The notes under the pieces were generated by a model. It was given only the letters and a program-made list of their open reading frames with translations, was not told the DNA's origin and ran no database searches. Both the position numbers and the translations under genes were made by a program. 64,000 bases of DNA from Lachnospiraceae bacterium (lineage in GTDB: Bacteria; Bacillota; Clostridia; Lachnospirales; Lachnospiraceae): assembly GCA_017626325.1 (NCBI GenBank), contig JAGAIZ010000059.1, forward strand, positions 1 through 64,000, written 5' to 3'. This document shows, in pieces, positions 36,298-40,290 of this stretch (positions within the stretch are counted from its first letter, which is position 1; every line of letters starts with the position of its first letter).

Positions 36298-37836
36298 TCA
36301 AAAAATCCGTCTGGCGGCTTTTTTCTTTAACTGCATAAGCCTATGGGAAAGCGCAAGCTGTTCATGGCAGGAGTCTATCTGCCGCAGCCTGTCACAGGCC
36401 GTAAGCCCGGTATTGGCATAGTGAGCTGCTCTGGCTTTATCTTTGTATTGTAGATAATATTCCGAAAGAATAGAACAGCTCATGATGGCAATAGCCCATG
36501 CGGCGGGAAGTCCGGTGCGCTCCGCCGCTTCGAGGGCGTTTTGTACAGCCTGTTCCCCATAGAATTGACATTCCTGACCGTTATCTTTCATCAGGGCGAT
36601 CAGGGCAAGGTACTGTAAGGCTTCGGCACGCATGACAGAAAGGTCTGTGCCTGCCAGTTTCTGTTGTTCATCCCTGAGCAACGCCAGGATTTTCAGAAAA
36701 GCATCCGCTGCTTCTTCCGGACGGCTTAAGGAGATGCATTGGACGCCCAGAAGATCCAGTGCGGCGGCATAGCCGTGATAGATTCGGATCAGCATACCGG
36801 AAAGAATGGTTCCCCGGAGATAGGAATCTGCTTCCCGTTCCTGTTCCAGCCCGCGAAGAGCCTGTACAAGAAGCCGGCATCCCTGATGAGAGAGCGCTGC
36901 GGCCTGCTCTGTCTGTCCGGAAGCCTGTAAGGGAATGCTTTTCTGGGATGCAGTCAATCCGCGAATAGCCTGAAGGATATTGTGCTCCAAAGCAGCGGTG
37001 ATAGTTTGGCTGACATTTTCTGCGGCTGCTTCACAGCGCAGCAGAAGTTCCGTCTGTCCGGTTGATGACAGAACCTGCAGACTGTAAAGACATTCTGTCC
37101 AGAGAGCGCGGACGAGATGGATATCAGCACCATGGGTATGGTACAACTCCCGGAACATAAGGGAGGCGTGTTGAAAGAGACGGCTTCCCTGAGTCTGTTC
37201 TCCATAGGAGAAGAGGACGCCTGCGGCGGCCAGATACAGTTCCGCCGTCTGGTCGCGGATAAGGATGTAGTCTTTCATCAGCGGTTCCAAATATTCCAGT
37301 ATAGGAATCAGCGCATGGTATCGATCCAGAGTCTCAGCGCTGTCGGCGGATGCGGCTTCCTGCATGGTTTCGGCACATGCCCACCCGATATACAGCAGTT
37401 GTTCTTCGGAAAGCCTGTTGTTATTGAGAATATTTGAGAAGCATTGCCCTGCAAGGGTGAACGCTTCCTGATAATAGGGACGAGCTTGCACAACGTCTTG
37501 GTCTGCCATGAATAACTGTGCGTTGATCCGGGCAAAATCCATTTCCAGCCAGGACAACCCGGCCCGGCTCTCTCCCGGGAGAACCCCGCAGGATCTGCAC
37601 TGCTCCAGGTATTCAGCCTGTGTGCGCATTACAGGCTCCAATGCGCCATAGTCGCCTGTATGGGCATAGTATCGCATTAATTCCTGCATGTCTTCCATCC
37701 GGTTCAGGAGGGTATGTATATCGGTATCTTTATTGCGCAAAGTCTCTTCATAGCTTTTCTGTAATGCTGCAAGCCGGGGCGTAAAATGTTCCCTGTCTGC
37801 GAAATTAGTATACTCTGTAGGAAAACATAATTTCAT
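36298..37836 (-). CDS. Large helical (TPR-like) protein, unknown
   Basis: A 512-residue all-helical, cytoplasmic protein with no signal peptide or membrane helix. Residues about 325-500 show degenerate tetratricopeptide spacing (ALDLLGVQCISLSRPEEAAD, ALQYLALIALMKDN). Tyr/Ala-rich helices earlier suggest a continuous helical-repeat solenoid. No enzyme motif is seen, and I do not recognise a family. GGGAGGG lies upstream of the ATG. It is third in the minus-strand series that starts behind the putative invertible promoter. A 144-base gap separates it from the second gene. Confidence 0.75.
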   Translation of the reverse strand: MKLCFPTEYTNFADREHFTPRLAALQKSYEETLRNKDTDIHTLLNRMEDMQELMRYYAHTGDYGALEPVMRTQAEYLEQCRSCGVLPGESRAGLSWLEMDFARINAQLFMADQDVVQARPYYQEAFTLAGQCFSNILNNNRLSEEQLLYIGWACAETMQEAASADSAETLDRYHALIPILEYLEPLMKDYILIRDQTAELYLAAAGVLFSYGEQTQGSRLFQHASLMFRELYHTHGADIHLVRALWTECLYSLQVLSSTGQTELLLRCEAAAENVSQTITAALEHNILQAIRGLTASQKSIPLQASGQTEQAAALSHQGCRLLVQALRGLEQEREADSYLRGTILSGMLIRIYHGYAAALDLLGVQCISLSRPEEAADAFLKILALLRDEQQKLAGTDLSVMRAEALQYLALIALMKDNGQECQFYGEQAVQNALEAAERTGLPAAWAIAIMSCSILSEYYLQYKDKARAAHYANTGLTACDRLRQIDSCHEQLALSHRLMQLKKKAARRIF

Positions 37837-37887
37837 GTGGTTGGAAGCCCTCCCTTTTAAGTTTCTGTTTCAAGTCTCTGTATCCAT

Positions 37888-37937
37888 GCCGTACAAGCAT
37901 CCATTCCGGGCTGCCGTGCAAGCGTCCGCTTCGGGCT
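37888..37937. repeat. Two tandem 25-bp repeats in a gap
   Basis: Copies at 37888-37912 and 37913-37937 differ at four positions; a third partial copy (GTCGTATCAGG) follows. They lie in the leader of the 36298-37836 gene. Confidence 0.85.
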
Positions 37938-37980
37938 GTCGTATCAGGTTTCTGTTCAACTCATTGCTGATGTCTGTGCA

Positions 37981-38883
37981 TTACCGTTTGTCTGTGTCAA
38001 TTAGCAGATCCCCCAGAATACTGTACAAAGCAGCCTGTCTCAAGGCTTCTTCGTAATTTACGGCAGGCGCTGCAATATCCTGTCCTGTAACATCTGCAGC
38101 CACAGCGGTAACAGGCTTATGTCTGGCAATATAGTCTGCGCACAGCAGAAGGGAATCTGCATCGATCTTGCTGTCGGGACAGAGGGAGGCATTGACACCA
38201 TGCTGATCAAGTGCTTTGAACTCCTGTGGAACCAGAGTGGTCAATATGTGATCCCTGGTATAAAAGATGCCGGCCGCATAGGTTTGGAAGCTGTGCCTGT
38301 TTGCGCTTGTCACGGAGAGATTGTGTGCCAGGTGGGGCGTATACAGGCTCCGTTCCTTACTGTCTTTGAGCCAGTCACGGACGAAGTAATATTTTAAAAC
38401 ATCATCGGGTGTTATTTCTTCATCGGCGGTCAGGGCATAGGTAATGGCAGCGGCATCAAGCCCCCGGACATACTTCCTGACGATCTCGTTACGCTCCGAT
38501 GGGTTGTATAAGGACTCTTCCCAGTAGGTATCTTCATCCACATCGGCATAGACGCTGTAGTACCGGATATGTTCCCGCAGAAGAAGCAGATGATTTCTGC
38601 CGTAATCCTGACAGATCAGTTCGTATTCCAGATCCTTGTCTTTCTCTGTCGAGTTTGGAGGAAGCATACTTTGGGTGCGGATTGTGCGGCAGACAGCTTC
38701 CCAGGGAACCGCCCACCAGTAGATGTCGTCTGTGGGCGGTTTGATGTTTTCTTTAAGCAGCATGGCTCTTGAAGTATCCTGTTCCATATGGGTATCCAGC
38801 ATTTGTCTGCGGTATTTTGCCAGAGCAAAAAGGTTTTCCCGCAGTCTGTCCGGCTTCAGGATTTTCCTGTTATCAAAATACAT
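37981..38883 (-). CDS. Unknown 300-residue cytoplasmic protein
   Basis: A soluble protein rich in Tyr, Asp and Arg. Segments such as DIYWWAVPWEAVCRTIRTQS and EESLYNPSERNEIVRKYVRG suggest a helical fold without signal peptide or membrane segment. No catalytic motif is evident and I do not recognise the family. GGAG lies about twelve bases before the ATG. It begins 24 bases after the upstream gene, so the two are one operon downstream of the invertible segment. Confidence 0.7.
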   Translation of the reverse strand: MYFDNRKILKPDRLRENLFALAKYRRQMLDTHMEQDTSRAMLLKENIKPPTDDIYWWAVPWEAVCRTIRTQSMLPPNSTEKDKDLEYELICQDYGRNHLLLLREHIRYYSVYADVDEDTYWEESLYNPSERNEIVRKYVRGLDAAAITYALTADEEITPDDVLKYYFVRDWLKDSKERSLYTPHLAHNLSVTSANRHSFQTYAAGIFYTRDHILTTLVPQEFKALDQHGVNASLCPDSKIDADSLLLCADYIARHKPVTAVAADVTGQDIAAPAVNYEEALRQAALYSILGDLLIDTDKR

Positions 38884-38907
38884 GATATATATTTCTCCAA
38901 AGAGTTT

Positions 38908-39366
38908 CTAGTGATCCAAATCAACGCTTACGGTGCCGTTTGCTTTGGCTTTACATGTTAATCTGATGATGTCGCCTTCCTTGATGTTTACTTCCAGATT
39001 GCCGTTTTCGCCTACGAAAAAAGCGTCGGATACAGAACCGAATGCTTTGCCCATGGCCATGCCGCCGATTAATCCGCCGCTCACGCCCCCGGCAGCAAGC
39101 CCGATTGCACTAAAGGTTGCTTTGGAGACATTCTTCTCGAATTTTTTCCACTTACGCTGGGGATCGATAAAATCAATAGTATGAGTACCGGGAACAATAT
39201 CGATCATATGAGGTTCTTTTTTGGGAAGTAATTTCTGTTCATGACCGTCAATGGATAGAATAACAGGACGTTTCCCAAAGAGAGCAAATGGCCCGAGATA
39301 AGGTTTTCCGTAACCTTTAGATATAAGTCCTTCTTTTCTTACGCGGATTGCTAGTTGTGTTTTCAT
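38908..39366 (-). CDS. Unknown 152-residue protein with a glycine-zipper segment
   Basis: A small protein with a beta-rich N-terminal half (PVILSIDGHEQKLLPKKE, IDIVPGTHTIDF). A glycine-zipper-like hydrophobic stretch (about 88-108: IGLAAGGVSGGLIGGMAMG) and a C-terminal beta segment follow. The zipper may insert in a membrane or pack against one. No family is recognised. GGAGGT lies close upstream of the ATG. It is the first gene behind the putative invertible promoter, so its expression would switch with segment orientation. Confidence 0.75.
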   Translation of the reverse strand: MKTQLAIRVRKEGLISKGYGKPYLGPFALFGKRPVILSIDGHEQKLLPKKEPHMIDIVPGTHTIDFIDPQRKWKKFEKNVSKATFSAIGLAAGGVSGGLIGGMAMGKAFGSVSDAFFVGENGNLEVNIKEGDIIRLTCKAKANGTVSVDLDH

Positions 39367-39405
39367 AAAGTTACCTCCAGGAATTTTATGTTATTGTTTT
39401 AAATA

Positions 39406-39547
39406 GTGTACCTTTGCAAAAAATAATAATAGGCACTATAAAACAAATTTTAGGGGGTAAGTTTCGTGAAAAGCATTGCTTTAAGAAGCGGTTGATGATA
39501 GAATTTGTGAAAATAGCTGTATCTATGTAAAATTTGCAAAGGTACAC
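39406..39547. promoter_or_regulatory. Putative invertible promoter segment with 15-bp inverted repeats
   Basis: GTGTACCTTTGCAAA (39406-39420) and its exact reverse complement (39533-39547) bound 112 bases. The segment lies between the start of a three-gene minus-strand operon and the end of a serine recombinase gene. Inside, a promoter (39476-39504) points rightward, away from the operon. Inversion would point it at the operon and give a leader of about 77 bases. This is the architecture of a recombinase-controlled phase switch, here apparently OFF. Confidence 0.75.
39476..39504 (+). promoter_or_regulatory. Promoter inside the invertible segment
   Basis: TTGCTT (39476-39481), 17-base spacer, TAGAAT (39499-39504). 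In the orientation given it reads into the 3' end of the recombinase gene, antisense to it. No comparable promoter faces the operon. Confidence 0.7.
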
Positions 39548-39573
39548 ATTTCAAAATCAGGGCGCAGAGCAGG

Positions 39574-40206
39574 TTATACGGTATTCTCATATTTGACGGC
39601 TTTGCCGTAGAAAGTCCCTGCAGGCAGATTGCAGGCCTGGGCGGCCTGTTTCAGCGTCAGTTTTCTGGCGCGCCATGCTTCGTGTACATCGTAGAAGTTC
39701 TCCGGAAGGGGAAGCGGCGGCCTGCCGAATCTTACGCCTTTGGCTTTGGCGGCAGCAATGCCCTCGGCCTGCCGCTGCCGGATGTTGGCTCGTTCATTCT
39801 CTGCCACGAAAGACAGTACCTGCAGTACGATGTCGCTTAAGAATGTCCCCATCAGGTCTTTGCCCCGGCGGGTGTCCAGAAGCGGCATATCCAGTACGAC
39901 AATATCGATTCCCTTTTCTTTGGTGAGAATGCGCCATTGTTCCAGAATTTCCTCATAGTTGCGTCCCAGACGGTCTATGCTCTTGATGTAGAGCACATCG
40001 TCTTTTCTTATTTTTCGTAACAGTTTTCTGTATTGGGGACGGTTGAAATCTTTGCCTGACTGCTTGTCTGTCAGAATGTTTGGCTCCGGAATACCAATTT
40101 CCCGAAGTGCAATCAGTTGTCTGTCTTCGTTCTGTTCCCGGGTGCTGACACGGATATAACCATAGACTGTTTTTCCGATAGTGGATTCGCCTCCTTTCTG
40201 TATCAT
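39574..40206 (-). CDS. Serine site-specific recombinase (invertase/resolvase family)
   Basis: A 210-residue small serine recombinase. The catalytic Ser is in YGYIRVSTREQNEDRQ, and the family Arg cluster in IKSIDRLGRNYEEI. Helix E contains ANIRQRQAEGIAAAKAKG, then GRPP, and a C-terminal helix-turn-helix ends with AAQACNLPAGTFYGKAV. It is the size and shape of Hin/Gin/Mpi-type invertases. Its stop codon lies 26 bases from the right inverted repeat, making it the obvious candidate to flip that segment. Start uncertain: the ATG at 40206 has no good ribosome binding site, while AAAGGAGG lies just downstream of it. Confidence 0.9.
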   Translation of the reverse strand: MIQKGGESTIGKTVYGYIRVSTREQNEDRQLIALREIGIPEPNILTDKQSGKDFNRPQYRKLLRKIRKDDVLYIKSIDRLGRNYEEILEQWRILTKEKGIDIVVLDMPLLDTRRGKDLMGTFLSDIVLQVLSFVAENERANIRQRQAEGIAAAKAKGVRFGRPPLPLPENFYDVHEAWRARKLTLKQAAQACNLPAGTFYGKAVKYENTV

Positions 40207-40243
40207 AATACGCAAAACTTTCCTGACACCCTCATCCTAATTA

Positions 40244-40290
40244 CAAAAAATCACCCAAATACAGCCCCGTAAGAACTGCACTTGAGTGAT
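40244..40290 (-). terminator. Terminator of the 40336-41097 gene
   Basis: On the minus strand, ATCACTCAAGTGCAG pairs with CTGTATTTGGGTGAT and is followed by six T. Confidence 0.8.

Follow-up and report, generated by a model that had tools for sequence, protein, structure and literature searches.

Between the 3' end of a small serine recombinase gene and three minus-strand genes in the window (here, the whole 64,000-nt stretch of DNA that was analysed) lies a short segment bounded by inverted repeats, and the question raised by this locus is whether the segment carries a promoter that the neighbouring enzyme turns round. A sequence-only reading had inferred such an invertible promoter from the geometry of the locus, and the proposal is now supported by relatives with the opposite orientation, by covariation of the recombinase C-terminal part with the sites, and by a bias in the positions of contig ends. 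We hold with high confidence that the window contains a self-contained phase-variation cassette, in which the recombinase would invert a 136-bp promoter segment and so turn the operon ON or OFF; judged from its sequence and that of its relatives, it is very probably a real and working invertible-promoter cassette. The features on which the argument draws, as predicted, are the following.

36298..37836, minus strand: third of the target genes, P0004, of 512 aa, for which no family passes the cut-off
37981..38883, minus strand: second of the target genes, P0003, of 300 aa, assigned to no family
38908..39366, minus strand: first of the target genes, P0002, of 152 aa, unmatched in Pfam, with GGAGG at 39374-39378
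39395..39422, no strand: distal crossover site on the operon side, dyad centre GT at 39408-39409, containing the repeat 39406-39420; its core dinucleotide is that of the other site
39476..39504, plus strand: promoter TTGCTT-17-TAGAAT (-35 at 39476-39481, -10 at 39499-39504), predicted from sequence and family position, now facing the recombinase (OFF)
39531..39558, no strand: proximal crossover site on the recombinase side, dyad centre at 39544-39545, containing the repeat 39533-39547
39574..40215, minus strand: small serine recombinase P0001 (Pfam Resolvase, E 3.9e-31)
40190..40197, minus strand: Shine-Dalgarno sequence AAAGGAGG, 10 nt ahead of the AUC codon at 40179-40177
40250..40290, minus strand: hairpin resembling a terminator, lying between the recombinase gene and the gene upstream of it, from a consensus scan that gave 8 sites against 5.8 expected from shuffling

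Repeats in the window and across the family

The repeats are as first described, with perfect 15-nt arms at 39406-39420 and 39533-39547 around an interval of 112 nt; widened with outer bases the arms reach 24 nt at 88% match, and the pair has an inverted-repeat score of 16.5 on our own scoring. The 14-mer TGTACCTTTGCAAA has two perfect matches in the 3.1-Mb genome, both in this repeat pair, and two single-mismatch matches elsewhere, which is about the chance number by our own estimate. The 15-bp repeats form the inner portions of two ~28-bp dyad sites with GT centres 136 bp apart, the proximal centre lying 29 nt past the recombinase stop codon.

A scan of species genomes gave at least 578 confirmed relatives of P0001, and the best 80 of these, which were kept (69-80% identical), come from Lachnospiraceae, Oscillospiraceae, other Clostridia and one Selenomonas. 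A recombinase match at E <= 0.001 is present in 45 of 61 genomes, the window's own included, and an order-wide search found matches at E <= 1e-60 in 126 of 393 genomes. The replicate set combines the order search with 80 regions hand-picked from the upper part of the match lists, some regions with in-frame stops or close to contig ends being skipped, and includes 9 regions left over from the 61-genome search. Loci with too little downstream DNA were dropped (7 of 110 in the first set, 6 of 108 in the replicate), leaving 103 and 102.

Directly past the recombinase stop, 60 of the 103 first-set loci reach an inverted-repeat score of at least 12. When each locus was shuffled 20 times and its best shuffle kept, 22 of 103 did so, and the DNA upstream of the gene did so in 10 of 103; a refined score of at least 10 together with a GTGTAC-like core in both arms is found in 64 of 103, the ten highest shuffle scores among 103 being 9 to 12. 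In the replicate set 53 of 102 loci score at least 12, against 3 of 102 single shuffles. Pooled, 114 of 205 loci reach this score and 113 of them have a definable centre, L102 being the one pair without a good one. These 113 cassettes include the window locus and some duplicates, and number 93 when similar interiors are merged; at least L019/L087, L026/L089, L080/L097 and L044/L119 are duplicates within the counts, identical over the tested stretches. As for whether related recombinases have kept the repeats, which the sequence-only reading had treated as decisive, they are present in 113 of 205 loci, not in all, and 91 of the 205 have no repeat pair scoring 12 within 330 nt.

Two groups of loci below the threshold may be mentioned here. 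L026/L089, L019/L087, L088 and L091 have close recombinases and downstream repeats scoring only 6.5-8.5; the enzyme could work at another place, or the segment could be situated beyond the searched 330 nt. The repeats of L158, L175, L210 and L121 have GTATAC or GTGT cores and scores of 8-9.5, short of the threshold; they suggest degenerate cassettes and stand outside the counts.

The same survey bears on the simplest alternative, that the repeat is a transcription terminator, or a chance repeat near a recombinase of some other function. Short AT-rich repeats do arise randomly, as the 3 of 102 shuffles reaching score 12 illustrate, and the pair is missing in the 91 loci just mentioned; against this stand the 112-nt loop, the similar sequence and position in 113 loci, the common core and the helical phasing set out below, which together make such an origin improbable in the extreme.

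Site anatomy and helical phasing

In 57 cassettes each arm is a dyad of ~28 bp, whose paired positions are complementary at the centre in 79% for the recombinase-side site and 63% for the far site, and in 15-38% when the centre is moved by 1-2 bases. The 2-bp staggered cut of a serine recombinase would require a common core, and the central dinucleotide is identical between arms in 112 of the 113 cassettes (GT 83, AT 12, AA 7, AC 6, GC 2, AG 1 and CT 1, the exception being AA/CA). The two methods of finding the centre, by dyad and by core, disagree in 6 of 90 loci, namely both GC loci, the AA/CA exception, AG, CT and one AA; because the rare cores fall among these discordant loci, the true spread of core dinucleotides is probably narrower than counted. 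Arm-to-arm mismatches are least frequent at the centre, which is suggestive only, given that the arms were chosen as repeats.

Across the 113 cassettes, the more alike two recombinases are in their C-terminal part, the more alike their half-sites tend to be (r 0.30; maximum of 1000 permutations 0.16), also when the catalytic domain is taken into account (partial r 0.27; maximum of 1000 permutations 0.15), the partial r for the catalytic domain itself being -0.015. This covariation of the C-terminal domain with the sites over 113 loci supports the adjacent recombinase as the cognate of the repeats.

The distances between site centres cluster at ~115, 127, 136, 147, 156, 166, 177 and 187 bp. In the first set (57 cassettes) the Rayleigh R is 0.74 at a period of 10.35 bp, which none of 2000 jittered nulls reached, and in the replicate (37 cassettes) the projection on the first-set phase is 0.50, the maximum of 5000 nulls being 0.39; the best single period of the replicate set is 10.6, not 10.35. 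Pooling gives R 0.58 for the 113 cassettes (null maximum 0.35) and 0.60 for the 93 with similar interiors merged (null maximum 0.37), and placing the centres by the core method wherever it gives one raises the pooled R to 0.64 at 10.4 bp. When cassettes are thinned by recombinase identity, the mean exceeds the 99.9% null at 85, 80 and 75% and not at 70% or below: below 75% identity (~43 cassettes) the mean R is 0.49, with a lowest draw of 0.43 and a 99.9% null of 0.47, and below 70% (~25 cassettes) an R of 0.49 against a 99.9% null of 0.54 leaves the phasing non-significant. We infer that the phasing would reflect a need for both nearby sites to lie on one face of the helix for synapsis.

Inversion among relatives and kinship of the recombinase

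Inverted copies in related assemblies, for which the sequence-only reading had advised a search, were found in the form of five cassette pairs with opposite interiors, where the interior aligns better inverted (72-98%) than direct (42-49%) between similar flanks. These are L086/L093 (98% inverted vs 49% direct; flanks 77 and 81%), L044/L030 (84 vs 49%; flanks 92 and 94%; the L030 repeat scores 10.5 and is outside the 113), L037/L039 (85 vs 48%; flanks 76 and 89%), L025/L029 (82 vs 42%; flanks 87 and 85%) and L120/L033 (72 vs 49%; flanks 79 and 79%). With interiors inverted between similar flanks, the segment has flipped in these pairs while recombinase and target stayed in place. Many further related pairs carry the interior in the same sense; two weaker inverted pairs, L135/L138 (51 vs 44%) and L137/L100 (64 vs 50%), were excluded as evidence. 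The assembly of the window's own genome holds a single orientation, OFF, and opposite orientations are known here from relatives. It is thus by comparing relatives that inversion can be recognized in the family, as can the site anatomy and the position of the promoter.

Contig ends are consistent with this picture: at 14 of 138 loci the contig stops within 250 nt downstream of the recombinase, and at 1 of 138 within 250 nt upstream. Such an excess is expected if assemblers stop at mixed orientations, and other causes are possible. At L174, L181, L186, L122, L136 and L140 the contigs end 34-132 nt past the recombinase stop, possibly from the presence of both orientations in the sample.

Among solved structures P0001 is nearest to Sin/Tn552 Bin3 (E 4e-31, 111 bits), followed by gamma-delta resolvase (E 2.5e-19, 73 bits) and by the 'DNA-invertase' entries 4m6f/3uj3, which we take to be Gin (E 3.4e-16 and 4.7e-16, 63 bits); with 50.3 bits against a cut-off of 272, it fails the Mpi model (NCBIfam equivalog). 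The earlier description of the enzyme as of Hin/Mpi type therefore stands for the mechanism and not for close kinship. This kinship is also what would favour a resolution (deletion) system, or repeats that are insertion-sequence ends, in place of a promoter switch, but the sites are inverted, not direct, and relatives have interiors inverted between conserved flanks; we judge this alternative very unlikely. Recombinase relatives occur in 226 phage records, 2 of them at 60-80% identity, and a 29-mer from the window segment had no match in the viral contigs searched.

The predicted promoter inside the segment

TTGCTT-17-TAGAAT does face the recombinase 3' end, away from the minus-strand genes starting at 39366, as had been read from the sequence. 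The further statement that the segment holds one good promoter survives in part: this promoter is present, but TTGTGA-17-TAAAAT, on the same plus strand at 39505-39533, is also a candidate from a generic scan and scores 9.4 vs 8.1, TTGCTT being a mediocre -35. Preferred by the first generic promoter score, TTGTGA-17-TAAAAT was set aside because it is TTGCTT-17-TAGAAT whose end, 40 nt short of the crossover centre, falls where the promoter-like pairs of the family tend to end. The window promoter looks to be of the sigma-70 type, and after a flip its leader to the ATG at 39366 would measure ~76 nt if transcription starts 7 nt past the -10, in line with the ~77 bases originally proposed.

Over the 113 cassettes, promoter-like pairs favour two zones for their ends, 38-42 and 29-30 nt ahead of the exit-side centre, with 16 loci at 39 nt, 18 at 40 nt and 11 at 29 nt, and shuffles giving at most 3 at any position. 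The best promoter score is 8.5 or more in 64 of the 113 segments; shuffled sequences attain this in 190 of 1130 cases, and control stretches lying farther downstream in 12 of 113. FliA-like promoter matches occur in 12 of 113 segments and 12 of 2260 shuffles; ten of the 12 belong to tldR-like cassettes, eight ending 41-42 nt from the exit centre, while those of L025 and L029 end at 35 nt, measured from a centre probably misplaced by 8 nt. One tldR-like cassette, L009, has no FliA-like match in its segment. From these positions, the place of the promoter seems to be kept even with another sigma factor.

Called by position, promoters point toward the recombinase (OFF) in 61 of the 113 cassettes and toward the target (ON) in 13, with 39 uncalled. 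Adding FliA-like matches gives 68 OFF, 16 ON and 29 uncalled; among the changes, those at L149 and L184 are weak and L005 passes from ON to OFF. The OFF excess (binomial 1.4e-8 for 13 of 74, uncorrected for kinship) is retained in thinned sets. In the window, the consensus scan predicted no minus-strand terminator between recombinase and operon, so that the OFF state may be leaky by read-through from the recombinase gene.

The start of the recombinase gene

P0001 likely starts at the AUC codon at 40179-40177, placed by its Shine-Dalgarno sequence, which would give a protein of 201 aa. Other in-frame starts are an ATG at 40206-40204, which sits upstream of AAAGGAGG, and a TTG at 40215; a start at the ATG is possible. 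The survey of starts covered 202 genes (218 recombinases, minus 8 below 55% identity and 8 without a start motif), 27 of which have a Shine-Dalgarno sequence, mostly strong, followed by an in-frame AUC, AUU or AUA, this AUN class being defined by having no ATG, GTG or TTG 3-13 nt past the Shine-Dalgarno sequence. The AUN codon lies 8-10 nt past it in 24 of the 27. The class is permissive, as 17 of 27, P0001 among them, also have an in-frame ATG, GTG or TTG upstream. Eleven of the 202 genes have none of these codons from the upstream in-frame stop to the catalytic domain, and ten of the eleven are in the AUN class (L005, L006, L017, L034, L049, L054, L071, L078, L084 and L125). Starts of the AUN kind are known from infC and some insertion sequences. 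A minority of the family's recombinases, probably including P0001, seem to start at AUC, AUU or AUA.

The unusual start is one ground for supposing that the repeats are recombination sites in a frozen copy, its recombinase unmade through a weak or lost start and the relic locked OFF: a strong Shine-Dalgarno sequence stands without ATG, GTG or TTG at the usual distance, the codon there being ATC, and the sequenced state is OFF. Yet the 27 of 202 genes with an AUN codon at the same place include L078, called ON, as well as L009 and L020, which have an inverted-interior relative in L037; P0001 has the in-frame ATG at 40206; and the arms are still perfect across 15 bp. A frozen relic is thus unlikely, if less so than the alternatives considered above, and we infer instead that the window copy inverts, with an active promoter and an enzyme that cuts at the core.

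Target genes in the window and in the family

The three genes behind the window segment are unfamiliar. Relatives of P0002 were found only in the window's own genome (1 of 61 and 1 of 295 genomes searched), as were those of P0003 (1 of 295) and of P0004 (1 of 61), and a family search gave P0002-P0004 no tldR, csrA or flagellin match. Predicted structures of P0002 (mean pLDDT 49) and P0003 (34) are too poor for a fold search. Membership of P0004 in the operon is less sure because of the 144-nt gap between P0003 and P0004. The stretch 36298-39366 appears as an orphan operon, homologue-less in the genomes searched, behind a probable phase-variable promoter.

Targets were scanned for 111 cassettes, one of the 113 being without a target call and one omitted for masked letters. 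Among the 25 listed of 73 families of first downstream genes are TnpB-type proteins (10), GT2 glycosyltransferases (7), ResIII (6), zinc ribbons (6), BspA-type leucine-rich-repeat proteins (5) and PqqD (3), with EcoRI-type methylase, GGDEF, MBOAT and TIR at 2 each; flagellin-like targets were seen by eye at L159 and at L102, the latter outside the 111. A homologous target is common to only 19 of 489 cassette pairs with recombinases 75-80% identical, which argues against one fixed transposon and implies that the module has been re-used before unrelated genes.

TnpB homologues stand behind the cassettes of L005, L007-L009, L016, L020, L025, L029, L037, L039 and L070, and the recombinases of L005 and L008 are 79-80% identical to P0001. 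In all nine sequences readable to the end (L005, L007, L008, L009, L016, L020, L037, L039 and L070; L029 was read partly), the RuvC motif-I Asp and motif-II Glu are missing and the motif-III Asp is replaced by Glu, as read by eye. Also by eye, three of the 11 loci (L005, L025 and L029) have a CsrA-like gene, and nine have a flagellin-like one. Sites of the tldR-like cassettes are 113-115 bp apart by core-method centres.

Relation to known systems

The segment inverted by Hin measures ~1 kb, and the reaction draws on an enhancer bound by Fis, whereas the window gene lies outside a 136-bp segment and is nearer in sequence to Sin than to the solved invertases; the window sites share with those of Hin and Gin two half-sites flanking a 2-bp core that is equal in both. 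Mpi has at least thirteen target regions in scattered places, in contrast to the window recombinase, which has one pair of perfect sites in its genome and also scores below the Mpi model cut-off. The fimE-fimS system of E. coli has in FimE a tyrosine recombinase, with a 3' end that abuts the switch and an OFF promoter that faces the recombinase gene; both traits recur in the window, where antisense control may be a further likeness. Hin of Salmonella, with sites of 26 bp, and Mpi of Bacteroides fragilis are likewise serine recombinases that invert promoters, as partly described in PMC3798978 and PMC5903667, respectively. Small invertible segments, many of them intergenic, have been described in Clostridia and gut Firmicutes (PMC5903667; PMC11892184); in the portions of these papers available to us, tyrosine-type invertases are named (PMC11892184) or both types are mentioned (PMC5903667), with no cassette rule of the present kind.

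A recent paper (PMC13418256, 2026) describes 'hin' genes ahead of csrA-tldR loci and inversions of ~120 bp there, deduced by comparing Flavonifractor plautii loci. As excerpted, that work has the window's order of recombinase, short segment and target, and our own tldR-like loci have a homologous recombinase with a repeat pair just past its stop, as in the window; the TnpB-target loci look like the tldR loci of that paper. Likened by gene order and through our own tldR-like loci, the csrA-tldR 'hin' loci appear to be a branch of the present family. In the window, by contrast, the gene set behind the segment is an unrelated operon and the promoter looks sigma-70-like, not of the FliA type, and the excerpted text (PMC13418256) covers the csrA-tldR context without site anatomy, spacing rule or start codon. 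In the open-licence PMC literature searched, so far as its text was accessible, no earlier description of the spacing rule, the promoter position or the AUN start was found; the design rules thus appear to be the new part, the tldR branch being apparently in print already.

Mechanism and outlook

On the preferred reading, that of a promoter switch, the recombinase would bind two ~28-bp inverted sites directly behind its own gene, join them over a 136-bp loop, cut at the GT core and invert the segment. The segment promoter would drive the operon at 39366 in the ON state and run antisense into the recombinase gene in the OFF state, the one assembled here. More speculatively, the OFF antisense transcript would lower recombinase expression and bias the population to OFF; orientation control is known for fimE. 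A broader proposal, which we advance tentatively and consider somewhat less likely to be right than wrong, is that the family is a portable, enhancer-free switch, with sites on the same helical face (~11, 12, 13 ... turns apart), a fixed distance from promoter to exit whatever the sigma factor, a low recombinase dose through AUU, AUC or AUA starts in part of the family and OFF antisense transcription, and a mostly OFF population.

Taken as a family, these loci would amount to some ninety distinct promoter switches from gut Clostridia that follow common, testable design rules: a repeat pair directly behind the recombinase, helical phasing, a preferred place for the promoter and, for a minority of the recombinases, initiation at a codon other than AUG. 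The genes under such control would include glycosyltransferases, restriction and helicase genes, leucine-rich-repeat proteins, flagellins and nuclease-inactivated TnpB. The helical phasing offers a direct physical test of short-segment synapsis, and the cassette rules may allow phase-variable genes to be predicted from assemblies alone.
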